Shown here in pieces: positions 26,163-64,000 of a stretch of DNA of 64,000 bases (the first letter of the stretch is position 1; each line of letters opens with the position of its first letter). The stretch is from Spirosoma endbachense. GTDB taxonomy: Bacteria > Bacteroidota > Bacteroidia > Cytophagales > Spirosomataceae. The stretch is taken from positions 6,091,001-6,155,000 of the forward strand of contig NZ_CP045997.1 in the NCBI RefSeq assembly GCF_010233585.1. The letters run 5' to 3'. A program made the position numbers and the translations under genes. The notes beneath the pieces were generated by a model. The model did no database searches, was not told where the DNA came from, and saw only the letters and a program-made list of their open reading frames with translations.

Positions 26163-27698
26163 CTAATTCTTCTTGGATTCTTCCGGCTTTTCGGAAGCCG
26201 AGTTAGCTTTGGCAAATGCGGCAACGGCCTGCTCATCAATGCCACCAACAACATCTAGTTTTGGCATCGCTTGCTTCAGGGTAGCCAGTCCCTGAGCAGT
26301 CACTTTTGTTTGCCAGAGGTAAACCGTTTTGAGGTTTTTCAAGGTTGTCAGCTCCGCCAGGCCCGCGTCGGTCACAGCCGTACCATATAGGTTCAGGTAT
26401 TCGAGGTTAGCCAGCCCTTTTAGTTGTTTCAAGCCAGCGTCAGTTATTTTCGTCTGCTCCAGATGTAGTTTTTGCAGGTTTTTCAATTTAGATAGCTGCG
26501 CTAATGTCGCATCAGATATGTCGGTCTCACCCAGCTTCAGCCAAACAATCTGGTTGCTGAGTTTGGGTAACAAGGCCGCCTGTGCATCATTGTAGGTTCG
26601 TGCATTAACCGCGCTAACTTCCAGCTGATTCTGTTCTTTTGAGAGCGGCAAGACCAGTAAACCGGTTTTCTTAAGTTCCTCAATTACTCTAGGGTCAGCC
26701 GCCGGAACTTTCATTGTCAGCACGGGCGATTCGGGCGCAGGACCCGCAGCAATTCCACTGCCAGAGGAGGCATTGGTCGAACCGCTACCACCCAGCGATG
26801 CCAACACGGGTTTGATGGCGTCGTTCACGGCTAATTCCGATACTTTTTTGTCAAAAGAAGCCCCCTGATCGATCCACCAGGTCAACAAGGCGATCTGCCC
26901 TTCACTAAGCTGCGATTTACCCTTTGGCGGCATGTGGTGATCATCTTCCTCGGGCAGTAAGCAAACCTTCACCATTTCACTGGTGCTACTTTTACCCGCT
27001 ACGAAAACAGGACCATCTTCGTAGCCTTTCTTTATCATTTCGGGCGAATCCAGCCGAAGGCCAGCCTTCGACTTATCGGCATTATGGCATTGAACGCAAC
27101 GCGTCTGGAGAATAGGATTGATAATCTGTTTATACACCATTGCCTGATTGACGTCGGTGATCGGCTCCGCCTTAAATTCTTTCTGCTTAGGCGGTAAGCC
27201 AGCCAGTGTTCTCAGTGGTCCGGGTGCATACTGAGTCAGGAAATCCGAACCGTGGGTCAGGTTTCCGCCCTGATGCCCAGCTGCCAGCAACAACAGCAGC
27301 GATACGCCCAGAGCAGGCAGATACATCAATTGGGCAAACGGGATCACCCGGCCCAGATTCTCCGATTTTACAGCCCAGGCAATCCAGGCAAACGCTGCTA
27401 CGCCAATCCCCTCCCATTTATGGTTATTGAGCGTTTCGGTGTCATAGCCTCCGCCCAGAGAAAGCATATAACCAAACACGCACGCCATCGTTGCACTTAC
27501 CGCCGACCAGAATAAAATCAGGGTAATTGTATGGGGACTAACCGAATTACGGCGAGTCAGACGGTCAATTTCGAGCAAGCCCGCAATGAGCAAAAACCCA
27601 ATCGGCAGGTGGACAATCAGCGGATGGAAATGGCCAAAAAACAATACCCAGTCCGAGGGCTGAGCAGCATTCGCCTGCAAAAAAATCAGTTTATTCAT
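26163..27698 (-). CDS. DUF2231 membrane domain - c-type cytochrome - leucine-rich-repeat protein
   Basis: A 511-residue multi-domain protein. Residues 1-150 hold about four helices of the DUF2231 type (FFGHFHPLIVHLPIGFLL). Residues 185-290 form a planctomycete-type cytochrome c-like domain with a single CxxCH heme motif (RCVQCH, near residue 200) and a distal Met in HHMPPKGKSQLS. Residues 370-480 carry four LRRs of the 24-residue type (LKNLQKLHLEQTKITDAGL). The frame is open to 27761, but ATG 27698 avoids overlapping the upstream gene. It is translated after the beta-propeller gene (14-bp gap) and probably sits at the cytoplasmic membrane facing the periplasm. Confidence 0.85.
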   Translation of the reverse strand: MNKLIFLQANAAQPSDWVLFFGHFHPLIVHLPIGFLLIAGLLEIDRLTRRNSVSPHTITLILFWSAVSATMACVFGYMLSLGGGYDTETLNNHKWEGIGVAAFAWIAWAVKSENLGRVIPFAQLMYLPALGVSLLLLLAAGHQGGNLTHGSDFLTQYAPGPLRTLAGLPPKQKEFKAEPITDVNQAMVYKQIINPILQTRCVQCHNADKSKAGLRLDSPEMIKKGYEDGPVFVAGKSSTSEMVKVCLLPEEDDHHMPPKGKSQLSEGQIALLTWWIDQGASFDKKVSELAVNDAIKPVLASLGGSGSTNASSGSGIAAGPAPESPVLTMKVPAADPRVIEELKKTGLLVLPLSKEQNQLEVSAVNARTYNDAQAALLPKLSNQIVWLKLGETDISDATLAQLSKLKNLQKLHLEQTKITDAGLKQLKGLANLEYLNLYGTAVTDAGLAELTTLKNLKTVYLWQTKVTAQGLATLKQAMPKLDVVGGIDEQAVAAFAKANSASEKPEESKKN

Positions 27699-27712
27699 AG
27701 TTAGCACTCGAT

Positions 27713-28780
27713 TCAGGAAACCCGTTCTAATTTTATAGGATAGGTTTTCTTGGAACTCCATTGCGCCACATAGATGCTATCATCTTCATCTACCAGCACA
27801 TCATGTGGATGCAGAAACGCCGAAACGCCACGTTCTTTGCGTTGTTCACCAAGTTTGCCATCCTGATAGACTGGCTCCGATCCGCCGGGGGTCGAAATTA
27901 CCCGGTCGTTTTTATCCAGAATGGTAATATAACCCGAATCAGGATAATTATCAGATGTGCTCCTAAAAACAGCACCATAGATATTTTCGCCATGAATAAC
28001 CGGTCGGCAAATGTATGATCCAGGCAGCGATATGGTCGAAACGTATTTGCCATCGAGTGTAAAACGCTTGAGCGCATTCCGTCGGCGATCAGTAATGAGC
28101 AGCGTTGGGCTACTGGTTCGGCGGTCAACGACAATACCGTGGCAGCAATCAAACGTATCGTTCGCTTCGCCCTTACCACCCCAATACCGGATAAGTTTAC
28201 CGGCTTTGTCATACTGCATTACGTAGTTCAGGCCATACCCATCGACTACATAAATATCGCCATTGGCTGGGTTTATAGCGGTTTCGGTCGGCTTAAACTG
28301 CGTCGGGTAGGCATAAACGCCCGTTTCTTTCGGATAGTCTAGCTTCATCAGTTCACTCCCTTTCAGATCCGTCTTAATGACCTGATGCCGGTCGGTATCG
28401 CTGATCAGCAGGTATTGGTCATTGCCTTCTCCACCCAGCGTTAAGCCATGACCACCGGGGTAGTCGTGGCCCCAGGTTTCGAGCAACTTACCTGACTTAT
28501 CATAAACGAGAATATTATTTTTGGTCTCGTTGGTTAGGAGAATGATTCGCCCCTTAGCGTCCTGTACCATCTCGTGGCAATCATTAACGGGATTTTTTCC
28601 CGCATCCAATACGCCCCAGCCTGGCACTACCCGATAACGGAATCCATTATGCCCTAAAACAGTTGTTTCGGCGCTATAACGATTGGTTTTTGCCGAAAGA
28701 ATCGTTGGTACGGAGGTACTTGCCGCTGCTACGAGCGATGCCTGCCGAATAAATGAGCGACGCGAAAACGAAGAAGCCAT
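27713..28780 (-). CDS. Tat-exported NHL/6-bladed beta-propeller protein
   Basis: A 355-residue periplasmic protein. The N-terminus has a twin-arginine signal (SRRSFIRQASLVAAASTSVP). The remainder is a beta-propeller of NHL-like blades: GHGLTLGGEGNDQYLLISD, GDIYVVDGYGLNYVMQYDKAG, LLITDRRRNALKRFTLDGK and HPHDVLVDEDDSIYVAQWS. This resembles the lyase domain of peptidyl-alpha-hydroxyglycine amidating enzymes, although activity is unproven. Several conserved His and Asp (NDCHEMVQD, CCHGIVVD) could bind metal. Tat export suggests folding or cofactor loading in the cytoplasm. It is followed at 14 bp by the cytochrome/LRR gene, suggesting a joint redox role. Confidence 0.87.
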   Translation of the reverse strand: MASSFSRRSFIRQASLVAAASTSVPTILSAKTNRYSAETTVLGHNGFRYRVVPGWGVLDAGKNPVNDCHEMVQDAKGRIILLTNETKNNILVYDKSGKLLETWGHDYPGGHGLTLGGEGNDQYLLISDTDRHQVIKTDLKGSELMKLDYPKETGVYAYPTQFKPTETAINPANGDIYVVDGYGLNYVMQYDKAGKLIRYWGGKGEANDTFDCCHGIVVDRRTSSPTLLITDRRRNALKRFTLDGKYVSTISLPGSYICRPVIHGENIYGAVFRSTSDNYPDSGYITILDKNDRVISTPGGSEPVYQDGKLGEQRKERGVSAFLHPHDVLVDEDDSIYVAQWSSKKTYPIKLERVS

Positions 28781-52359: not shown

Positions 52360-55300
52360 ATGCCTAGCCCTAATCTTTATGCCTTAATTGTGGGTATTGG
52401 CGCTTACGAACGGGTACGCCCTTTACGCGGGCCCGTTAACGATGCGCTTTCTGTCAATAATTATTTAGGACTATTAGCGCCCCATTTCACCCTGAACATA
52501 CAGGTCCTAACCGACCAGCAAGCCAATAAAACCGCCATTATTGACGGGTTTCAGACCCATCTGGCTCAGGCGGGTCCGGATGATACCGTGCTGTTTTATT
52601 TTGCCGGGCATGGCACGCAGGAAGCCGCCGATTCAACAATCTGGCTCACCGAAACCGACGGACAACTTGAATGCCTGGTTTGCCATGATGCGGGCACTGC
52701 CAATACATGGGATTTTCTGCTGGCCGACAAAGAACTGCGCTACCTCATCGGTCAGGTCGGCGCAACGGGGGCGCACGTCGTCACCGCGTTCGATTGCTGT
52801 CATTCGGGCGATAATACCCGATCCGACGTGTTGCTGATGGCCGCGCTTGCCGAACAGGATGTGCGCGAACGACGACTGACCTTCAACGCCCCTCAACGCC
52901 CGTATAATGGCTTTTGTTTTCACACCACGGTGCCGGCTGAATTGATTAAAAGCCATGGCATCGAAACGGCGCTGCCTCAGGGTGCGCATGTTCAGATGGC
53001 CGCCTGTGAGTCGGATGAGAGTGCGGTGGAAGTTAATGGCGAAGGCGTTTTTACCAAACATCTGCTGGCGGTGTTGGGAGCGGCTCACGGGCAGTTATCG
53101 TATGGCGATTTGCACAACCGCGTTCGGCAAACGATGCGGTTCGGCTACGAACAGCACCTACGAATATATACACCGGCGGCAGGCTCACCCAGCGATGGTG
53201 GGGATAGCCTGCTGAGCCGGGGATTTCTGAACCAGCCGCTTGATGCCGATACGCTCACGGCCTCTGTTATGTTCAATAGACAGGAAGGCTGGCTGCTCGA
53301 CGTGGGGGCTATTCATGGAGTCGGGAAGTCCGATCAAACTATTTATCTGTATGACCGCGATGGAGAACGTTATCTGCTCGGTATTGAACGGATCGGGGCC
53401 GATTATAGCGTTGTAACCCTTCCCGATGCTTTACGGCCTATACTCGACAAAATGATCGTCTATCGGGCAACAGTGGCGGGTCTGTTGAGTCAACCCATTC
53501 GGCTTCAGTTGTTCAATCACGGTGGCCTGGCAAGCGATTTACCCGATTTGTTGAGCGAGCTAAACAATCGGGCTGGCGCCTGCTTCGTGACGGAAGATGA
53601 TCCGGCTAAAGCCGACTATTGCCTGCACGTTCGTAACGGACTCTATTACATCACCCATCCTGATATAACCGATCCGTTAGCCCACGAGCGACCACTCATT
53701 CGCCCCGTTCAGGCCGACAATCCGCAGGCGTTTGAGGGATTGGCGGAAGACCTGCGCCACCTGGCCCGCTGGCACTACCTGACCCATCTCCGTAACCCCG
53801 AGGTTACTGATCCGGTATTAAATGTAGAGGTAGAAACCACATCGGAGCAGTCCATACCCTTAACTGAAGCCCATCCAGCGCCATTGCCTGTTCAGTTTAC
53901 CCGTATAAACCCAACTAAACCTTATTTGGCGCAACTTCGCATTCGGCTGACTAATCCCAATGATCAGGCGCTGTATTGTACGGTGCTGTATCTTTCGCGG
54001 GATTTTGGTTCGTTTCTGGATTTTCTGCCCACAAATTACCGCCTGGAAGCTGGCCAAAACGTCGCGTTGGGTTTGGCCGATCGAAAAGCGCCGACGGGTC
54101 GGCAAACAACATTGCGGCTGGGACTGGAAGAGGTAATCCGACAGTATAACTGGCCCACGGTTTTCGAACAGATTAAATTACTTATTACGACGGAGCCGCT
54201 GTCGGAGAAAACACTGGCGTTTATAAAGTTAAACGCGCTGCCTTCGCCCCCAGTACTGACCGACCGCAACAAACCGGAGGGAATGAACCGGGGAGCATTC
54301 GAAATCGACGCCGACGAAACCGAACCCCTACCCGAATGGAGTACGCAAACTATTACCCTTCAACTAGTTAATCCGCTTTACAACCAGGTTCGGGCGGATG
54401 AAGTAAGCCAAATGCTGGAACCGGTTGCTGACGGGTCTTACTCCGTTCAGACTGATTTTGCACTGGGTTTATATTACAAAATGACCCAGGCCAATGGGTT
54501 GCTGCCAGATTTACAACTCCGCGACGAACTGGTTTTGATACACCCGGCCGAGGGCGAACGTGGGCTCTGGAACGACCTGAAAGTAGGCATTGCCAATCGG
54601 ATAGCGAACCAGTTACGGAATCGGCAATACCGACAAAACCTGATCCGCTATCCAGACCGTATCCGCATCGTGGCGGAGGGTGATTCCTGGTTCCATTATC
54701 CGTTTCTGCTGCGGGATATTGTCGATTATCTGTCGGGAGTTTATACCGTTTACAACGTAGCCAGTGCGGGGGCCACGATGGATGACTACCTGAAAGAGGG
54801 TAGTTTTCTGGAGGCTATCGCACAGGTAAAACCAGCATTTTTCCTTCTAAGCGGAGGGGGCGATGAGTTATTTGGTGAAGCCTTTCCCCGACTCATTCGC
54901 GACGTACCCCGTACCGACGTATCGGATGCTTCCCGATATGTGTCCGACGCTATTGACGAAACGTTGGCGCAGCTAAATGAACGCTTCACCCGTATGCTGC
55001 GACTCGTGCAGCAGGGATATCCGAAGGTAAACGTACTGATACACGGTTACGATTATGTCATTCCGGCAAATACCGCCATGAATAGGCAACCCGGCTGGCT
55101 AGGTAAAATCCTGGTAGCCAAAGGTATTACGGACGCCAACGAGCGCGAAGCAATTATCCGCTATGTAGTCGATGCCTTTAACAACGAACTCCGCCGGGTG
55201 TCGGATGCTTATTCGAACGTAACGTATCTTGATTTGCGCAGTACGATTCAGCGCACCAACCGGCCCGCCGATTACTGGTACGATGAAGTTCATCCCAACG

Positions 55301-57363
55301 ACAAAGGCTTTCTGCGTTTGGCTTCACGATATGTAAGCCACATCAACCACAAGGAAGGAAAAACCGACAGTATCGATGCCGCATCCACCGACGCAACCGG
55401 TGAGGATGGCGACGCCCCCGAACGTTGGTCAACCGCTTACCTGGAAAGCAAGCGCCTGTTAGGCGACCCTTTGGCCGACCACGTTATCGAAACATTGCTG
55501 GCCGAAAACCAAAAAGGCGAAATCGACCAGATTTTTCAGGTGCTCGTGCGAAACCGACACTTTCCCAATCCTGCTTTCGACGTGCTGCCTGATCCGGTTA
55601 AGCGCATCGTTGAGAATTATTTCGGGCAAACCCGCCAGCTACCCGCCAACGCCGAGCCGTTCAAACTGATGATCGCCAGCGAGGTGTTCAAGCATCATGG
55701 CCCGAAAATCCTGTTTATTCTGCTCTGCAAGTCGCTTCCGCTTTGCTACACCTGCTGGCGAGGGGCCAAAGTGCTGTATCGCACCGGTCGGTTGCGCGTT
55801 AACGACGGCTCTCTGGATGCCTTTAGCCGACGGGTAATGGAAACCGCCCAGTTTGTGGTAGACATGATGACGCACAATAATTTTGAGCATGACGGTACAG
55901 CCATTGTCGCTACGCAGAAAGTCCGGCTTATACACGCGACCATCCGGTACTTTGCGCAACAGCGGGCCTGGGACATAGATACTTACGGCATTCCCATTAA
56001 CCAGGAAGATTTAGCCGGTACGCTCTTGTCCTTCAGTGTAACTATCCTTGATGGGCTGGACCAGCTCGGCGTAATGCTCACGCCCGAAGAGCGTAGTGCG
56101 TATATGCACCTGTGGAGCGTCGTAGGGACGATGATAGGCATTGACCCCGATCTGGCAGTAGAAGACGAAAACGAGGCTCGTGCCCTGATGAAGGCCATTA
56201 TGGACCACCAGGCCGGACCTTCCATGGAAGGGGCCGAACTAACCAATGCGTGCATCGAGCTCATGAACGAGCGGATGGTGGTGGGGCCGCTCAAGCGGCT
56301 GTCGCCTTATTTTGTCCGATTTTTCATTGGCGATCACTACGCCGACATGCTCCGCATCGCAACCGTCGATCCAGACAACTCGTTTGTACTGGAAGCGGCT
56401 CAATGGTTAGACAAGGGCATTCGGGGAATGAACGAGCGGAACCTACTGCTGGCAGCTTTGGGCCGCTCGTTGAGCCACAGCATGGTCACTGGATTCATGC
56501 GGTTTACCAATGCCGCGAAACACGAACAGTTTTACTTACCCTCGGCTCTGACCGACGACTGGGAGGCCGTCACGCCCGACTTTCGGATTCCACCCCTCGA
56601 TCGTATTGAGGATATGATCAGTTACCTGGATAAACTGGCGCGCCACTTTCGGGCACAGAACAATCCAATGGGGCTGTTCTGTGCTGTTTATAAACTGGTT
56701 ACGGAGCGCGTGGCAGCTGGTATCCGACTCGGCCTATTTGAGAATCCGGTGGAGATGGAACAGGTCGATGTGGGATTTGGAAACCGTTATTTTGAGGCTA
56801 TCAATCTGTACTTCGACGGCAAACCCGCACCGGGTCCCTGGCAACTTTCGTTCGATGCTGCCCAGACGCTCCTCACTACCGATCAGCATATTTTTTCGGC
56901 AGCCAACGCGCATATCACGTATGACCTGCCCATTGTCGTAGCGGAGGTATATCGAGGTAAAGACATTGAGCGGTTCAAAGACGATTTTACCCAGATGAAC
57001 GCGCTCTTCGACGATCTGTACCACCAGATGAACGACAATGTCGGGCGGATCTTCCGGCCTTTCGGTCGTATACTGACCTACTTTTCCGACCAAATCATAC
57101 GACTTGAGAGCGAAGTGATGAAAAAAGGCCGTGAGCTGGCCTGGCAGAAAAGCGGACAACTTCATCGGGCAACCGACACCACCGAATACGCCCGGCTGCT
57201 CGCCCAGCTTGAAGCCGACGCCACCGCGTTGGGCGACGCTATCGTGCATCCGCCGGTGTTGTTGCGAATGCCGTTGCAACGCATTGCCAAACAGGAATTC
57301 GGAACGGCCGCCCACAAAATAGATGTTATGCTTCGAACGGCGTTGCTGCCCGAAGTCGCTTAA
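52360..57363 (+). CDS. Caspase-like peptidase / SGNH hydrolase / Lcp-DUF2236-like oxygenase fusion
   Basis: A 1667-residue soluble protein without signal peptide. Residues 1-260 form a caspase/metacaspase domain: LYALIVGIGAYE, catalytic H84 (YFAGHGT) and C147 (DCCHSG). Residues 290-760 are less clear; RIRLTNPNDQALYCTVLYLS looks like a DUF4384-type beta domain. Residues 765-1000 are SGNH/GDSL: S776 (EGDSWF), LLSGGGDELF, and D975/H978 (DEVHPND). Residues 1080-1400 resemble latex-clearing-protein/DUF2236 heme oxygenases: R1158-x3-T1162 (RVMET), then H1192 (VRLIHAT) exactly 30 residues on, then PINQEDLAGTLLSFSVTILD. A helical end of about 270 residues follows. The oxygenase call rests on pattern memory. 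The kinase gene starts 14 bp downstream. Confidence 0.8.
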   Translation: MPSPNLYALIVGIGAYERVRPLRGPVNDALSVNNYLGLLAPHFTLNIQVLTDQQANKTAIIDGFQTHLAQAGPDDTVLFYFAGHGTQEAADSTIWLTETDGQLECLVCHDAGTANTWDFLLADKELRYLIGQVGATGAHVVTAFDCCHSGDNTRSDVLLMAALAEQDVRERRLTFNAPQRPYNGFCFHTTVPAELIKSHGIETALPQGAHVQMAACESDESAVEVNGEGVFTKHLLAVLGAAHGQLSYGDLHNRVRQTMRFGYEQHLRIYTPAAGSPSDGGDSLLSRGFLNQPLDADTLTASVMFNRQEGWLLDVGAIHGVGKSDQTIYLYDRDGERYLLGIERIGADYSVVTLPDALRPILDKMIVYRATVAGLLSQPIRLQLFNHGGLASDLPDLLSELNNRAGACFVTEDDPAKADYCLHVRNGLYYITHPDITDPLAHERPLIRPVQADNPQAFEGLAEDLRHLARWHYLTHLRNPEVTDPVLNVEVETTSEQSIPLTEAHPAPLPVQFTRINPTKPYLAQLRIRLTNPNDQALYCTVLYLSRDFGSFLDFLPTNYRLEAGQNVALGLADRKAPTGRQTTLRLGLEEVIRQYNWPTVFEQIKLLITTEPLSEKTLAFIKLNALPSPPVLTDRNKPEGMNRGAFEIDADETEPLPEWSTQTITLQLVNPLYNQVRADEVSQMLEPVADGSYSVQTDFALGLYYKMTQANGLLPDLQLRDELVLIHPAEGERGLWNDLKVGIANRIANQLRNRQYRQNLIRYPDRIRIVAEGDSWFHYPFLLRDIVDYLSGVYTVYNVASAGATMDDYLKEGSFLEAIAQVKPAFFLLSGGGDELFGEAFPRLIRDVPRTDVSDASRYVSDAIDETLAQLNERFTRMLRLVQQGYPKVNVLIHGYDYVIPANTAMNRQPGWLGKILVAKGITDANEREAIIRYVVDAFNNELRRVSDAYSNVTYLDLRSTIQRTNRPADYWYDEVHPNDKGFLRLASRYVSHINHKEGKTDSIDAASTDATGEDGDAPERWSTAYLESKRLLGDPLADHVIETLLAENQKGEIDQIFQVLVRNRHFPNPAFDVLPDPVKRIVENYFGQTRQLPANAEPFKLMIASEVFKHHGPKILFILLCKSLPLCYTCWRGAKVLYRTGRLRVNDGSLDAFSRRVMETAQFVVDMMTHNNFEHDGTAIVATQKVRLIHATIRYFAQQRAWDIDTYGIPINQEDLAGTLLSFSVTILDGLDQLGVMLTPEERSAYMHLWSVVGTMIGIDPDLAVEDENEARALMKAIMDHQAGPSMEGAELTNACIELMNERMVVGPLKRLSPYFVRFFIGDHYADMLRIATVDPDNSFVLEAAQWLDKGIRGMNERNLLLAALGRSLSHSMVTGFMRFTNAAKHEQFYLPSALTDDWEAVTPDFRIPPLDRIEDMISYLDKLARHFRAQNNPMGLFCAVYKLVTERVAAGIRLGLFENPVEMEQVDVGFGNRYFEAINLYFDGKPAPGPWQLSFDAAQTLLTTDQHIFSAANAHITYDLPIVVAEVYRGKDIERFKDDFTQMNALFDDLYHQMNDNVGRIFRPFGRILTYFSDQIIRLESEVMKKGRELAWQKSGQLHRATDTTEYARLLAQLEADATALGDAIVHPPVLLRMPLQRIAKQEFGTAAHKIDVMLRTALLPEVA

Positions 57364-57377
57364 TTACCCGTTGATCC

Positions 57378-59534
57378 ATGCCCATAAAACGCTGTTATCT
57401 CTTCGCCTTGTTGGCCTTCCTGCTGATTAGTTCGCTTCGGGCAGCGCCGGTCGTTGTTCAGGACCCAGCTCAATCCTATAATCTCTTCAATGCCAGTACG
57501 CTGCTGGAGACGAAAGCAGGGAGTTTATCGATGAAGGCTTTGCTGCAAAACCCAGAACGGTATCAATTTGTACCTACCCAGCATGGGCTGATCAAACCTT
57601 ATTATCGCCAGTTTGAATACTGGTTTCGGTTCGAGCTGACAAACCAAACCGCATCGGACCTGTTTCTGCACTTCGTTTACGCTGGAACCGAATACATCAC
57701 CGTTTATGAAGTGGCTGATGGAAAGCTCCTGGAGACCTATCAACTCGGCACGCTCCAACCCCAACGGACATACACATATCTGAAAAGTAATGAAGTGTGC
57801 CCTACGTCGGTTCGCCAGGGCCAAACGCACGTCTTCTATGTGCAGATGCGCGGAGTATTCACTACGGCGCTGCCCATCTACGCCCAGGCCACGGGGATGT
57901 TGTTGCAAACGTTGCACCGGGACGATCTGTTTTACGGCCTCTATTACGGATTTATCCTGATTATCATTATTTACAGCCTGCTTCTATACGTTCGGCTTCG
58001 GGAAAACGATACGCTCCTGTATAGCATCTGGGTCATTTTTATGGGGCTGCAACTGGCCCTTTTTCGGGGTCATACCAACGAGTTTTTCTGGCCGTCGAAC
58101 CCCGCTATCGAGCGCTACGCTACGGTCCTGGCCGGGCTTACGGGGCTGGTGCATATCCCGTTCACGCTGGCCTTTCTTCGTCTGCGCCAGCGAGCTCCGC
58201 TATTCTACAAACTGGGCATCGGCATACTGATCCTCTACGCGATCGGGATCGTTCTCAACCTCATCGGCGTCAGTGCGTCAGTGGGCGAAAGCCGTCGGTT
58301 GGACTTTGTTCCCCAAATTGCCTTGCTGGAAGGCATTTTCAGCGTAACGGCGGGGATCATCATCTTCCGTCGGGGATTCCGGCCCGCCCTGTTCTACGTC
58401 ATTGGTAACCTGGTCTTTTTTGCGTCTATTTTCCTTTTTCTGGCTTACGCCAACGGGACGTTACCGTACTCGTTCTGGACTTATAATAGCCTGCATCTGG
58501 GGTCGGGCATTGAGATTATTCTATTTACGCTCGCCCTGACCAACAAGGTAAACCTGCTCAAACAACAGCAGGAAGCTGCCGTACAGGAACAGCTTCGACT
58601 GACCGAAGCCAACCGGCAACTGGTAGCGCAGCAGAACACTATCCTGGAAGAAAAAGTAAGCCTACGCACGGCGGAACTACATAGTCAGAAGGAAGAATTG
58701 CAGAAAACATTAACCACGCTGCAGGCCACCCAGACGCAACTGATTCAGCAGGCAAAACTTGCGTCGCTGGGCGAAGTGACGGCGGGTATTGCCCACGAAA
58801 TCCTGAATCCGCTCAACTTCGTCAATAATTTCGCCAAAATGTCGGTCGAGCTGGCCGATGAGTTGAAAGAGGGTGTAGAAACGAACGACTATCCGTTGGT
58901 GACCGATCTGACGGGTGATATCCGAAAAAATTTACAGTCTATCGCACAGAACGGACAGCGGGCAGCGGACATCGTTGGAAATATGCTTGAACACGCCCGT
59001 ACTGGCACCTCTGGCCCGCGCCAACCCACAGACCTTAACGCTTTGGCCGACAGGTACATCCATTTGAGCTATCACGCCCTGCTGGCCAAAGACAAGTCGG
59101 GTTCGCTGGCTCAACTTAACGCCCAGCTAATTACCGACCTAGACCCTAAGGTGGGCATGATTGATCTGGTGCCGCAGGATATGGGGCGGGTGTTGCAGAA
59201 TTTGTTCAATAACGCTTTTTACGAAGTGGCTCAGAAAGCCCGGAAGCAGCCTGCCGATTATCAGCCAACTGTATGCGTTCGGACGGAACGGACGAAAAAC
59301 GAAGTTAAACTCACCGTATACGACAATGGTGCAGGCATTCCCGTGTCGATCCGTCCCAAGATTTTTCAGCCATTTTTCACGACCAAACCCACCGGACAGG
59401 GTATTGGGCTGGGCCTATCGCTCAGCTACGACATCGTTACCAACGGCAACGGCGGGCGTATAGACGTTCACACGGAAGAAGGCAATTTCACTGAATTTCA
59501 CGTTTATCTACCACTTAGTTCCTCTGGATCATGA
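57378..59534 (+). CDS. 7TMR-DISM sensor histidine kinase
   Basis: A 718-residue kinase. A signal peptide (1-22) precedes an extracellular 7TMR-DISMED2 beta domain (about 30-175, YYRQFEYWFRFELTNQT). A seven-helix 7TMR-DISM membrane block spans about 185-390, followed by a long coiled coil (395-460). The HisKA box has H473 (GIAHEILNPLNFV), and the HATPase domain has N (NLFNNAFYEVA), G1 (VYDNGAGIP) and G2 (GQGIGLGLSL) boxes. DISM sensors often detect carbohydrates or small metabolites. No response regulator is encoded in view, so it is an orphan here. It starts 14 bp after the fusion gene and is likely co-transcribed. Confidence 0.93.
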   Translation: MPIKRCYLFALLAFLLISSLRAAPVVVQDPAQSYNLFNASTLLETKAGSLSMKALLQNPERYQFVPTQHGLIKPYYRQFEYWFRFELTNQTASDLFLHFVYAGTEYITVYEVADGKLLETYQLGTLQPQRTYTYLKSNEVCPTSVRQGQTHVFYVQMRGVFTTALPIYAQATGMLLQTLHRDDLFYGLYYGFILIIIIYSLLLYVRLRENDTLLYSIWVIFMGLQLALFRGHTNEFFWPSNPAIERYATVLAGLTGLVHIPFTLAFLRLRQRAPLFYKLGIGILILYAIGIVLNLIGVSASVGESRRLDFVPQIALLEGIFSVTAGIIIFRRGFRPALFYVIGNLVFFASIFLFLAYANGTLPYSFWTYNSLHLGSGIEIILFTLALTNKVNLLKQQQEAAVQEQLRLTEANRQLVAQQNTILEEKVSLRTAELHSQKEELQKTLTTLQATQTQLIQQAKLASLGEVTAGIAHEILNPLNFVNNFAKMSVELADELKEGVETNDYPLVTDLTGDIRKNLQSIAQNGQRAADIVGNMLEHARTGTSGPRQPTDLNALADRYIHLSYHALLAKDKSGSLAQLNAQLITDLDPKVGMIDLVPQDMGRVLQNLFNNAFYEVAQKARKQPADYQPTVCVRTERTKNEVKLTVYDNGAGIPVSIRPKIFQPFFTTKPTGQGIGLGLSLSYDIVTNGNGGRIDVHTEEGNFTEFHVYLPLSSSGS

Positions 59535-59801: not shown

Positions 59802-61061
59802 ATGAAAACCCTTCTTTTCTGCTTTGCCAACGACCGGGATCGTCCGCTGCCAGAACTACGGCGCGAGGACGATACCATTGATCGGTTGCTGGACCCATTA
59901 AGCAGCCAACAACACTTTCAAAAGATTCGGGATTCATTCGCCACAACCAACTCCATTGCCAGCAAAATCATTACGTATCAGGACTCGTTGTGTCTGTTTC
60001 ATTACAGTGGACACGCGGGGGCTTCCATGCTCCATCTGGAAGATTCACCAGCCAGAGCCGTGGGGGTTGCGCAACTGCTGGCCCGTTGCCCGCAGCTCCG
60101 ATTGATCTTTTTAAATGGCTGTTCCACGCTGGAACACATCCAGTTGCTTCGGCAGCAAAACAGCAAAGCCGCTATCATTGCCACCAGCACCCCCGTTGAG
60201 GATACGGTAGCGACCCAGTTCTCGATTACGTTTTACCGCGCCCTGATCAGTGGCACGACCCTGGCGGAAGCACTGGACCGGGCACGTCTGGAACTCCAGG
60301 TTAAAGACTCAACTGTGATCGAAACCATCCGGGGCGGTATCGTTACCGAACTGGAAGAGGTAAGCCGAAATCAATGGTACTTCTCGACACCCGATGAAGT
60401 AACTACGCAATGGAAGCTGCCCGCCGGGGAGGAGTTGCGTAGTGCCGAGCGCCGGACCCGCTACGACCGCAACATCCGCCTGGCCCTGATTCTGGGCAGT
60501 ATAGCGATTGTGGGCGGGAGTTATCAGTATTTTCGCACGCATCAGAGTTTCGACTACATCGTTTACCTACGCCCTGGGCAAGGCCAGGCCCCGGTTGCGG
60601 GTAAAGTCAAACTACGGCTGCTTCTGGGAAATACGCCCCGTGAGGAAACAGCCGATGCAAACGGCCGGGTAGTGATTGCGGGAATTCCGGCCCAGTTTCA
60701 GGAAAAACCCGTTCGCATCGAACTGCTCAACAGCCCGGATCAGGCGTTTAGCAACGGTACATCCGTCGATACGCTCCTATTGGCCGAAACCGAAGCCACA
60801 TTGTTGTTAATTCCGCACCAGGATTTGTGCTGCATTCGTGGCACGGTCTACGATAACAACGGCCAGCCCGTTCCCAAAGCCACCGTTTGGGCGGAGAACT
60901 TTCCGGCCCAGCAAACTGACAGCGTAGGGCGTTTTGTCCTCCCGTTGCCGGTACAGTACCAACAGGAAACCAGCATCCGCGTGACGGCCCGTAAAAACCA
61001 GCAGCAAGCCTCCGTACACGCGACTCCCCGCGAAGAAACGTCGGTATCACTTCCTCTATAG
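59802..61061 (+). CDS. Membrane-anchored CHAT-domain protease
   Basis: A 419-residue protein. Residues 1-200 form a CHAT (caspase HetF-associated) protease: H71 in HYSGHAG and C107 in FLNGCSTLEH are the clan-CD dyad. ATSTPVEDTVATQFSITFYR and GTTLAEALDRARLEL are typical CHAT follow-ups. One membrane helix lies at about 226-243 (LALILGSIAIVGGSYQYF). The outside part carries two CarboxypepD_reg-like beta domains (APVAGKVKLRLLLG and IRGTVYDNNGQPVPKATVW). So a protease inside is anchored to a sensor-like domain outside. It is followed at 4 bp by the TPR gene; TPR-CHAT pairing is typical of this protease class. Confidence 0.87.
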   Translation: MKTLLFCFANDRDRPLPELRREDDTIDRLLDPLSSQQHFQKIRDSFATTNSIASKIITYQDSLCLFHYSGHAGASMLHLEDSPARAVGVAQLLARCPQLRLIFLNGCSTLEHIQLLRQQNSKAAIIATSTPVEDTVATQFSITFYRALISGTTLAEALDRARLELQVKDSTVIETIRGGIVTELEEVSRNQWYFSTPDEVTTQWKLPAGEELRSAERRTRYDRNIRLALILGSIAIVGGSYQYFRTHQSFDYIVYLRPGQGQAPVAGKVKLRLLLGNTPREETADANGRVVIAGIPAQFQEKPVRIELLNSPDQAFSNGTSVDTLLLAETEATLLLIPHQDLCCIRGTVYDNNGQPVPKATVWAENFPAQQTDSVGRFVLPLPVQYQQETSIRVTARKNQQQASVHATPREETSVSLPL

Positions 61062-61065
61062 CCCA

Positions 61066-64000
61066 TGAAAACGGTAATTGCACTAATCGTTTGGGTGAGT
61101 CTGCCGCTGCTAATGCAGGCGCAGGCTCCCTGTTTACAGGAATATAAGGGCGAAATAACCCTTTACACCAACAAAGGCCGGTTACCTCAGATACCGATTG
61201 TGATTGACGGCAATCAGGGGCCACTGAGCGATGCCAATGGTATCTTTCGGTATCGCCTGAATAAGTGTCCGGGCATGACGGTTCGCATCAAGTTAGGCGG
61301 CAGCAATTGGGATATTGTTAACCACAGCGAAATCTATTCCTATACGATCCGCCAACTGGCCGACCCCTCTGATTTTCAGTTTAAGCTGATTGTGGCGCAA
61401 GTCCAGGACATCGAAAAAGCAAGGCGTCAGTACTACGCCACTATTGCCGGCGTGGCGTTGGATAAAGGCTTGACGTCGATGAAAGGAGACATCAAGAAAC
61501 TAACCGATCTGGTAGTTGATCAACAGCGGCTCATGGCAAATGGAGCGAAAAAACCGGAGGGACAACCGCAACCATCGACCGGCGCTCTGGAGCAACGGCT
61601 GCAACAGCAACAAAAAGAGTATCAGCGCGTACTGGATAGTCTGGTCAAAGCGCCTGCGATGCTCACCAGTCGCATTGATGAGTTGCAGAAATTACTCGAA
61701 AAGCAGCGGGGAGCTGACAAACGACTGATCGACAGTCTGGGCCGTGGAGGAACCAGCCAGCAAAGTAAAATTGCCGAGTTAGAAAAAATCCTGAATCGAC
61801 AGCGGCAGGAAAATCAGCAATTGCTGACGAAACTAGTGCAGCAACAGGATTCGACCCGGCAGAACGATAAGTCTGGGGAGTTACGAAAACTTGTTGAACA
61901 GCAAAAACAGGAGAACCAGCGACTACTCGACAGTCTGGGCAAAAAGGAACTGGCCTGGCAAAAGAGCCGGCAGAACGAGCTGGCCAGTACCGAAAAAAAT
62001 AAGACAATCGAGCAACTGCGCGACAGCCTGTCCCGGATGCAAAACCGCTATGAGCAGGCCCTGAGCGAACGGGATAAACAGCTGAGCGAAGCCCAGGCAA
62101 TGGCGGCCGTTTTTGCGAAGCAAACCGCAATCGACAGCAGTTATCAGAAAGCCTTCCTGCAATATAAAGAAGGCCAGTTTGCGAAAGCGTTATCGGCGCT
62201 GGACGATGATGATATACGCATCAAACAATCCATGAAGAAGAGCGCTCAGGTAGGCACCGGCGCTCCTCCGAATGGTGCTTCTTCTAGTGCAAATGAGCAA
62301 ACAAATCAAGTACCGGTGGAGGATCGGGCTGTCTACATCGGTAAGTGCTTGTTAAAAGCCAACATTTACCGCAGCCAGTATGACATGGACCAGGCGGCAC
62401 ATTGGTATGAGGAAGCCATCCAGGCCGATCCGACGCAGGTGGAAAACATACTCACCTACGCCAACTTCCTACAGCAACTGAATCGGCCTCTGGAACCAGG
62501 GCGTTGGTATCAGAAAGCCTTGGACCTCAATCCACCCGCTTCGCTTAAGGCCGACATCTACGTTGAATTGGGCTATTATCACATGGCCAACAATCGGTTC
62601 GAGGAAGCCGAAGCCGCGCTTCAGCAAGCCAAAACTCTAAGACAGCAACTGGCCCGGACTAATCCTGAGCAGAATGAGCCGGGTCTGGCCCACGTGCTGG
62701 ATGGATTAGGGACACTTTACTCGAAAAAAAGACAATTCGATGAGGCTGAAAAAGCCTTTGTTCAGGCCAAGAACATCCGCGAGAAACTGGTTGAAAAGTA
62801 TGCCGATGAGTTTGAAGCCGATCTGGCGTTTTCGCTCAATAACCTGGGTACATTTTATTACATCAACAAACGGTTAGGCGACGCCGGAAAGACGTATCTC
62901 CGCGCCAAAACGATACAGGATCGGCTTGTTCGCCGAAATGCGGATCAATATGAACCGGATCTGGCATCTACCCTGAATAATCTGGGTACGCTCAATTCTG
63001 ACCTGGAACGGATACCCGACGCAGAAACGGCCTATAAACAGTCTAAAGCCATTCGGGAGAAACTCGCTCAGAAAAACCCTGACCTATATGAACCGAGTCT
63101 GGCGCAGGTGCTTAATGATTTAGGCGATCTGTATAGCCTGACGAAGCGGTATCCTGAAGCAGAAGCCTCGTATCAACAGGCCAAAACCATTCGGGAAAAA
63201 CTCGCCCAGAAAAACCCCGACCAGTTTGAGGGCGACCTGGCACAAACCCTGACTGATATCGGTAATTTTTACCGGGATACAAAACGCTATCCAGAAGCCG
63301 AAGCAACGTATACGCGTGCCAAAACGATACAGCAGAAACTCGCCGGTAAGTTTGCCGAGCTGTTCGAACCGACTCTGGCGATGACTCTGGGCGATATGGG
63401 CTTTTTCTACACCGAAATGAAGCGCTACCCCGAAGCCGAAGCCTTTTATCAAGAGGCCAAAACGATTCAGGAAAAGCTTGCGAAAAAGAAGCCAATCGAT
63501 TTTGAGCCCGACCTGGTGTATACACTGATGGATATGGGAAATCTCTACTTCGACACAGAACGGCCCAGAGAAGCCAAAGGCGCGTATGTAAGGACCAAAG
63601 ACATCCTGGAGCGACTTGCCGCAACAGATGGCGGACAGTCGACCTCGCTACAGATTCAGGTCCTGCATCGACTGGCGCTCCTAAGCGATGCACAGGAGCG
63701 TAGCAGCTATTTTCTGGAAGCTGATTCCTTACAGCAAAAAGTGGTTGAACTGGTCGAAAAACAATTTGGTGATGCAGATTCGGCGCTGATGGCCCGTGAA
63801 TTGAGCAATTGGTCGTATCACTCGCTTTTCAGCAGAAAGTTTGCCAAAGCTCAATCATTAGCGGAGAAGTCGCTTTCCTACGATGACCACGAAGCATGGG
63901 TTAATGCCAATTTAGCGATGGCCTACCTGATGCAGGGCAAGCTTGACGATGCCAAATCGCTCTATACGTATCTGAAAAACAAACCCCACCGATCTGGCAG
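61066..64000 (+). CDS. Exported coiled-coil/TPR repeat protein (3' end outside window)
   Basis: Open from ATG 61066 to the window end, at least 978 residues. Signal peptide 1-20 (ending MQAQ), a small beta domain (about 22-105, related to the outer domain of its CHAT neighbour: DGNQGPLSDANGIFRYRL), a coiled coil (about 130-350) with repeated DSLG words, then TPR from about residue 365. From 62700 to 63665 the TPR units repeat every 138 bp (46 residues) with core NNLGTLY...RYPEAEATYxxAKTIREKLA, of the kinesin-light-chain-like type. It starts 4 bp after the CHAT gene. It probably scaffolds protein contacts in the periplasm or on the cell surface. Confidence 0.85.

Follow-up and report, generated by a model that had tools for sequence, protein, structure and literature searches.

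The window, a stretch of 64,000 nucleotides of the Spirosoma endbachense genome (contig NZ_CP045997.1, positions 6,091,001 to 6,155,000), encodes a single protein in which a caspase-MID-SGNH core is joined to an MpaB/Lcp oxygenase-like domain and a DUF5995 domain (Table 1). We tentatively propose, with slightly less than even confidence, that this protein represents a caspase-controlled suicide or conflict module of Spirosoma and its near relatives, with the MpaB-DUF5995 half as executioner. This reading is favored because related cores exchange this half for a peptidoglycan amidase, because gasdermin genes adjoin several of the loci, and because caspase, CHAT and nSTAND proteins are found in their company.

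Table 1. Coordinates of the fused gene, its regions and the downstream genes in the window.
Feature	Position	Strand	Basis or remark
Whole fused gene, caspase-MID-SGNH-linker-MpaB/Lcp-DUF5995	52360..57363	+	1667 aa; Pfam, PADLOC caspase model, relatives
Caspase domain	52378..53154	+	Pfam, residues 7-265; dyad H84/C147; metacaspase-1 alignment
MID region, residues 286-750	53215..54609	+	Conserved with the core; no Pfam match
SGNH domain, residues 756-1000	54625..55359	+	Pfam, residues 780-983; S776, G804, D975 and H978 present; D835 replaces the block-III Asn
Variable linker, residues 1001-1018	55360..55413	+	Junction point of the separate genes in relatives
MpaB/Lcp oxygenase-like domain, residues 1019-1345	55414..56394	+	Pfam, residues 1152-1340; R1158, E1161, T1162, R1189, H1192, R1196
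DUF5995 domain, residues 1405-1667	56572..57360	+	Pfam, residues 1416-1631; conserved H1510, H1518, D1522, D1542
7TMR-DISM receptor histidine kinase	57378..59534	+	14 bases downstream of the fused gene
CHAT domain and CarboxypepD_reg protein	59802..61061	+	Likely same cluster; Pfam
TPR-repeat protein	61065..64000	+	Extends past the window end; cluster membership by position only

Domain architecture, active-site residues and selective constraint

The fused gene starts with ATG and forms one unbroken frame. The three domains that the original prediction had placed in this frame all score above the curated Pfam cut-offs, namely Peptidase_C14 (71.9 bits; cut-off 21.4), Lipase_GDSL_2 (39.8 bits; cut-off 32.9) and MPAB_Lcp_cat (82.3 bits; cut-off 23). 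A fourth domain that had been overlooked, DUF5995, gives the strongest match of the entire protein (161.2 bits; cut-off 27). The profile search returned no Pfam match for the ~465 residues between the caspase and SGNH domains; the PADLOC caspase model PDLC02987 aligns with residues 4-965 at 264.5 bits over its full length (profile positions 1-453 of 453). The caspase-MID-SGNH module thus matches, at the level of sequence, a protease model that is numbered beside the bacterial gasdermin in PADLOC.

The catalytic residues proposed earlier, comprising the caspase dyad (H84, C147), the SGNH triad (S776, D975, H978) and the Arg-Thr-His set of latex-clearing proteins (R1158, T1162, H1192), were verified at these positions. 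In the alignment to metacaspase-1, H84 falls on the GHG motif and C147 on the DSCHSG motif. Asp145, two residues before C147, is invariant (41/41 copies), which would predict a basic P1 residue, as in metacaspases. The relationship of the C-terminal part to DUF2236/Lcp, on which the oxygenase claim had been staked beforehand, is borne out by significant matches in both Pfam and PDB. Lcp (5o1m, 5o1l; E ~8e-17) is its sole PDB match at E <= 1, and R1158, T1162 and H1192 are paired with the Arg, Thr and His of Lcp. Since this alignment is ungapped from the paired Thr to the paired His, the 30-residue spacing that had been pointed out for both proteins (the residue numbers of Lcp being assumed in that comparison) reflects homology and not coincidence. 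The residue preceding Thr1162 is Glu1161, and the alignment places at this site a Lys of Lcp, presumably K167. Other differences are that the window protein is joined to caspase-SGNH and DUF5995, that its haem is only predicted, and that its chain opens straight into the caspase domain, whereas Lcp is a secreted protein. The structural model of the C-terminal part, with a mean pLDDT of 51.9, has low confidence and Lcp as its best Foldseek match; the N-terminal model, likewise of low confidence, gives GDSL esterases and metacaspases as the best matches. The matches of these low-confidence models agree with the sequence evidence, and the models do not place H1192.

The SGNH domain retains its profile match, the GDS serine S776 and the DxxH residues D975 and H978. 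However, in both the window protein and the sister at 96% identity, block III reads GGGDE, not GGGND, and thus the N of S-G-N-H is missing. The earlier assumption of a working esterase is not supported for the window copy, in which D835 occupies the position of this Asn. In the DUF5995 domain, the near-invariant H1510, H1518, D1522 and D1542 of an all-helical fold may constitute a candidate metal site.

Selective constraint was estimated from three pairs of fused genes, in which dN/dS of the five regions excluding the linker ranges from 0.055 to 0.233. The lowest values within the gene belong to MpaB (0.056-0.076) and DUF5995 (0.055-0.060); those of the caspase, SGNH and middle regions are 0.070-0.125, 0.077-0.187 and 0.145-0.233, respectively, and dN peaks in the linker in every pair. 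The caspase His and Cys are kept in all 41 copies; a wider set has the Cys in 25 of 27 cases, the exceptions being a Thr and a gap. The six MpaB residues R/E/T/R/H/R are complete in 18/18 complete copies and in 57 of 58 stretches of a wider set, the remaining one being a gap. The SGNH block-III Asn is present in 29 of 37 aligned copies, having been lost from 8/18 MpaB-side copies vs 0/19 of the others, as though its task had passed to another part, a contrast that rests on two lineages; one Larkinella copy also lacks the SGNH catalytic His. DUF5995 is not uniformly intact, since H1510 is replaced by Tyr in six Larkinella copies and H1518 by Tyr in two second copies (see below). We infer that the caspase and the oxygenase are the indispensable pair on the MpaB branch, with the esterase under relaxation.

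Fused and split versions and exchange of partners

The proposed architecture recurs in five other genomes, which encode the fused protein at 60-96% identity: it is found whole at 96% in a genome of the same genus (G004) and at 60-62% in Fibrella aquatilis (G256), Fibrella rubiginis (G079), Fibrisoma limi (G367) and Fibrisoma montanum (G359). In addition, an open frame spans the joint (residues 589-1665) in a fragmented Spirosoma MAG (G028); the fused state therefore occurs in seven genomes of three genera. In nine further genomes of the family, Larkinella included, the caspase-MID-SGNH and MpaB/Lcp-DUF5995 halves are encoded by two genes on the same strand. The gap between them is 179 bases in G870, 1.1 kb holding a gasdermin gene in G403, 1.9 kb in five genomes labelled with the genus Larkinella and 8.4 kb in L. 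knui (G879); in G015, the two frames overlap if the second is read from its beginning, and a start at its in-frame Met at codon 83 would leave ~23 bases between them. Altogether, MpaB-DUF5995 was detected in 16 of 222 family genomes (E <= 1e-85), with the core fused in seven and linked in nine, without exception; this count scored the two best candidates per genome and may miss second copies.

A tenth split pair, with its halves 110 bases apart, was found in the record Flavobacterium sp. SUN052 (NZ_JAPQNS010000002.1), which a scan of genome contigs by two exact peptide patterns had listed; such a scan does not measure rarity. Transfer to Flavobacterium was rejected: RpoA of this record is 93% identical to that of the window genome, which equals the G403 value and exceeds that of Fibrella aquatilis (91%), and, judged by this sequence comparison, the record most probably belongs to the window's family and carries a wrong label. 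A second set, diverged to 35-40% identity, is also present in the window genome and in G004; a sub-threshold WD40 protein and a caspase-nSTAND1 protein (Pfam on the window genome's set only) are encoded in the 5.6 kb between its halves. In the window genome, this second conflict cluster (C1:8108000-8127900; L006 1687-18709) encodes caspase-SGNH, the sub-threshold WD40 protein, caspase-nSTAND1 and MpaB-DUF5995 with Tyr at H1518, as well as a methyltransferase and a 1781-aa kinase-AAA-GAF-cyclase protein. Four other loci, L156 (G895), L166 (G904), L167 (G846) and L080 (G032), contain the gene parts in separate frames and are apparently split or decaying copies.

Beyond these loci, a search of the genus gave some match to the query in 36/36 genomes, mostly MpaB-only frames of ~350 aa, and such frames are widespread across the order. 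Among 395 sampled genomes of the phylum, MpaB-DUF5995 (E <= 1e-50) was found in two, both of the window's family. The 22 genomes with DUF5995 include 11 with any MpaB match (E <= 1e-10) and one with the long type reaching residue 1402. The 13 stand-alone DUF5995 loci have no neighbor common to more than two of them, and none adjoins MpaB, caspase or SGNH; their neighbors were rejected as a clue to function, as no functional link was found. Carriage by phages was rejected: viral contigs yielded no confirmed relative of MpaB-DUF5995, six of them having weak caspase or SGNH matches (22-30%), and of three matching phage records two contain an Lcp gene and the third a stretch of caspase. A record named Acinetobacter phage MD-2021a (CAKLQH020000035.1, 1052-1741) includes a gene with the annotation latex clearing protein. 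The 153 plasmid records that match part of the fused protein include none that covers 80% of it.

The phylogenetic tree of 34 caspase-MID-SGNH cores, which omits four of the 38 loci (G032, G846 and G904, with caspase and SGNH not in one frame, and G895, with the core not seen), is divided into two sides with support 100/99. On one side, MpaB-DUF5995 accompanies the core in 18/18 rows (6 fused, 12 linked); on the other, the core has a fused N-terminal Amidase_2 domain in 12/16 rows and neither partner in 4/16. MpaB-DUF5995 is thus a partner fixed to one core branch, whereas the sister branch, which has the same core at ~36-42% identity, mostly carries a peptidoglycan amidase. Pairwise distances of the core and of MpaB are correlated (r = 0.89 over 18 loci; 0.95 minus the two divergent copies), which could also be expected from shared ancestry alone. 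G015 and the SUN052 record, with their separate genes, fall among the fused rows, so that the fused state does not form one clean clade. G015 combines both partners in one gene row, its stand-alone Amidase_2 gene lying two genes past the receptor.

A family of ~250 aa adjoins eight of the 12 amidase-caspase-SGNH genes and also occurs in the G015 cluster and beside an SGNH-Amidase_3-M15 gene of Sinorhizobium fredii (loci L158, L160-L163, L168, L073, L078, L070 and L129 6145-6918); Pfam scans of two of its copies, L070 and L129, gave no match. Plasmid proteins from Rhizobium (L127 6881-8791) and Palleronia (L128 100-1731) likewise contain SGNH and caspase, in the reverse order SGNH-caspase; the SGNH match of the Rhizobium protein is below the Pfam cut-off.

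Neighboring receptor, gasdermin and conflict-type genes

Of 18 MpaB-DUF5995 copies, 16 are followed immediately, at a distance of -4 to 60 bases, by a 7TMR-DISM receptor gene, which is missing from the two divergent second copies. The output domain of the receptor is a histidine kinase in ten of these copies and a class III cyclase in six genomes of Larkinella label, the latter called by Pfam on one receptor, to which the other five were matched (phmmer); despite this change, the sensor half is kept at 54-56% identity to that of the window. The exchange of kinase for cyclase behind a retained sensor half can be seen at L151 12358-14334 and in its five Larkinella relatives. A search with the sensor half (E <= 1e-60) gave matches in 25 of 222 genomes, including all 16 MpaB genomes. 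The others comprise G006 and G018, which have a close receptor (53-54%) adjoining an AraC-type hybrid regulator and no MpaB-DUF5995, the broken locus G895, and six genomes with more distant paralogues. No receptor was found alongside the amidase-type cores examined.

As the receptor is associated with the enzyme rather than with the core, the strongest rival to a suicide module is signal production, whereby MpaB-DUF5995 would oxidatively cleave an isoprenoid, the adjacent receptor would read the product or the lipid state, and the caspase core would act as a regulatory or downstream partner in a sensory pathway that involves no weapon. The association of the receptor with the enzyme is better explained in this way than by the suicide module, and the close spacing and the sensor half retained through a change of output also favor signal production. 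Nevertheless, we consider signal production doubtful, as the receptors of G006 and G018 are equally close without the enzyme, the second enzyme copies are without the receptor, and the company of gasdermin and amidase is left unexplained.

In three MpaB loci (G367, G359 and G403), a bacterial gasdermin gene directly adjoins the core. The Fibrisoma limi protein matches the PADLOC bGSDM model PDLC02986 at E 4e-70, and the G367 and G403 proteins match the PDB gasdermins 8sl0 and 7n51 (best E 1.5e-17 and 2.6e-14); all three genes were also recovered when the whole family was searched for gasdermins. A gasdermin match was obtained in only 12 of 222 family genomes; hence three direct adjacencies are unlikely to arise by chance. 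In bGSDM systems, the caspase acts by cutting the gasdermin, and we presume that PDLC02987 is the caspase of such systems from its number and these three loci. However, the window's genome contains no gasdermin (no PDLC02986 match at E <= 0.001), and none was detectable in 13 of 16 MpaB genomes in the family-wide search, which speaks against the suicide module; the window protein is therefore better described as a member of a protease family used beside gasdermin than as a gasdermin system. It further differs from bGSDM-caspase systems by its MpaB/Lcp-DUF5995 half and by the receptor in the gene row. Neither an alignment of the gasdermin C-termini, inspected by eye, revealed a clear common site, nor did the linkers of the six fused proteins an evident common self-cleavage motif.

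CHAT, nSTAND1 and caspase-nSTAND1 proteins were also found in the core loci, and the downstream CHAT gene of the window has counterparts in G004 and G403. Window-type cores share these neighbors with the multi-component caspase/CHAT/nSTAND conflict systems, a class from multicellular bacteria. Elsewhere in the window, positions 26163-27761 encode a PSCyt1 cytochrome protein with leucine-rich repeats.

The neighborhoods also bear on a purely metabolic role, that is, a lipid- or isoprenoid-degrading oxygenase with an esterase, regulated by proteolysis and devoid of any death function. Members of the MpaB/Lcp group are catabolic or biosynthetic, and the wide occurrence of MpaB-only frames in the order is in keeping with such a role; however, the surroundings of fused and split copies have no catabolic or transport genes in common, and their common neighbors are the receptor, regulators, gasdermin, CHAT and nSTAND. 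We regard a metabolic enzyme of this kind as improbable.

Predicted mode of action and significance

A protective function, with the caspase-SGNH core as the killer and MpaB-DUF5995 as an antidote or repair arm that removes oxidized or excess lipid or holds the caspase inactive, is likewise a poor candidate. The strict linkage and strong constraint would also fit a toxin-antidote pair, which fusion would keep together; however, it was the SGNH domain, not the oxygenase, that lost an active-site residue in 8/18 copies of this branch, and sister cores do without MpaB, having an amidase or no known partner instead. Finally, a junction of two unrelated genes created by accident or by mis-assembly, to which the separate genes of G015 and SUN052 within the fused group might point (they indicate that the joint is not essential), is highly improbable given its recurrence across three genera and the purifying selection on every domain.

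The caspase-controlled suicide module remains our preferred explanation. We propose that it would be switched on by a signal that the adjacent 7TMR-DISM receptor senses, by an internal trigger to which the caspase and its nSTAND/CHAT neighbors respond, or by both. The caspase would then cut partner proteins, such as gasdermin where present and perhaps its own linker, and the putative haem oxygenase half would cleave an isoprenoid lipid of the cell, presumably stopping respiration or envelope synthesis. As Lcp and MpaB cut isoprenoid chains, menaquinone, undecaprenyl carriers and carotenoids are the natural candidate substrates. Of the original notion of a lipid-attacking suicide effector released when the caspase part cuts itself, the effector is consistent with the gasdermin of three loci, the fused amidase on the sister side and the caspase/CHAT/nSTAND neighbors, whereas self-cutting release as a necessary step is not supported, since 9 of the 16 family genomes encode the two halves separately. 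The suicide module is also weakened by the abundance of MpaB-like proteins without a caspase, which implies that the family has ordinary roles.

A more specific version of the suicide module, which we put forward as a rather unlikely one, holds that a caspase-gated haem dioxygenase brings about the death of its own cell through oxidative cleavage of a polyisoprenoid, be it a menaquinone side chain, an undecaprenyl carrier or a carotenoid, and that the older SGNH hydrolase, its block-III Asn lost in two lineages, is being given up as the oxygenase takes over as executioner, beside gasdermin pores or replacing them.

Most known effectors of bacterial suicide destroy nucleic acids, proteins, NAD or membranes. 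If the proposed function is true, oxidative lipid cleavage would constitute a new effector chemistry for bacterial suicide of the caspase/gasdermin type. A caspase-linked MpaB/Lcp oxygenase would also provide a testable role for the widespread DUF2236 and the uncharacterized DUF5995, and would demonstrate the exchange of partners (amidase, gasdermin and oxygenase) on one caspase core. The natural fused and split versions allow the two halves to be tested apart, and the receptor with its exchangeable output offers a handle on the presumed trigger.
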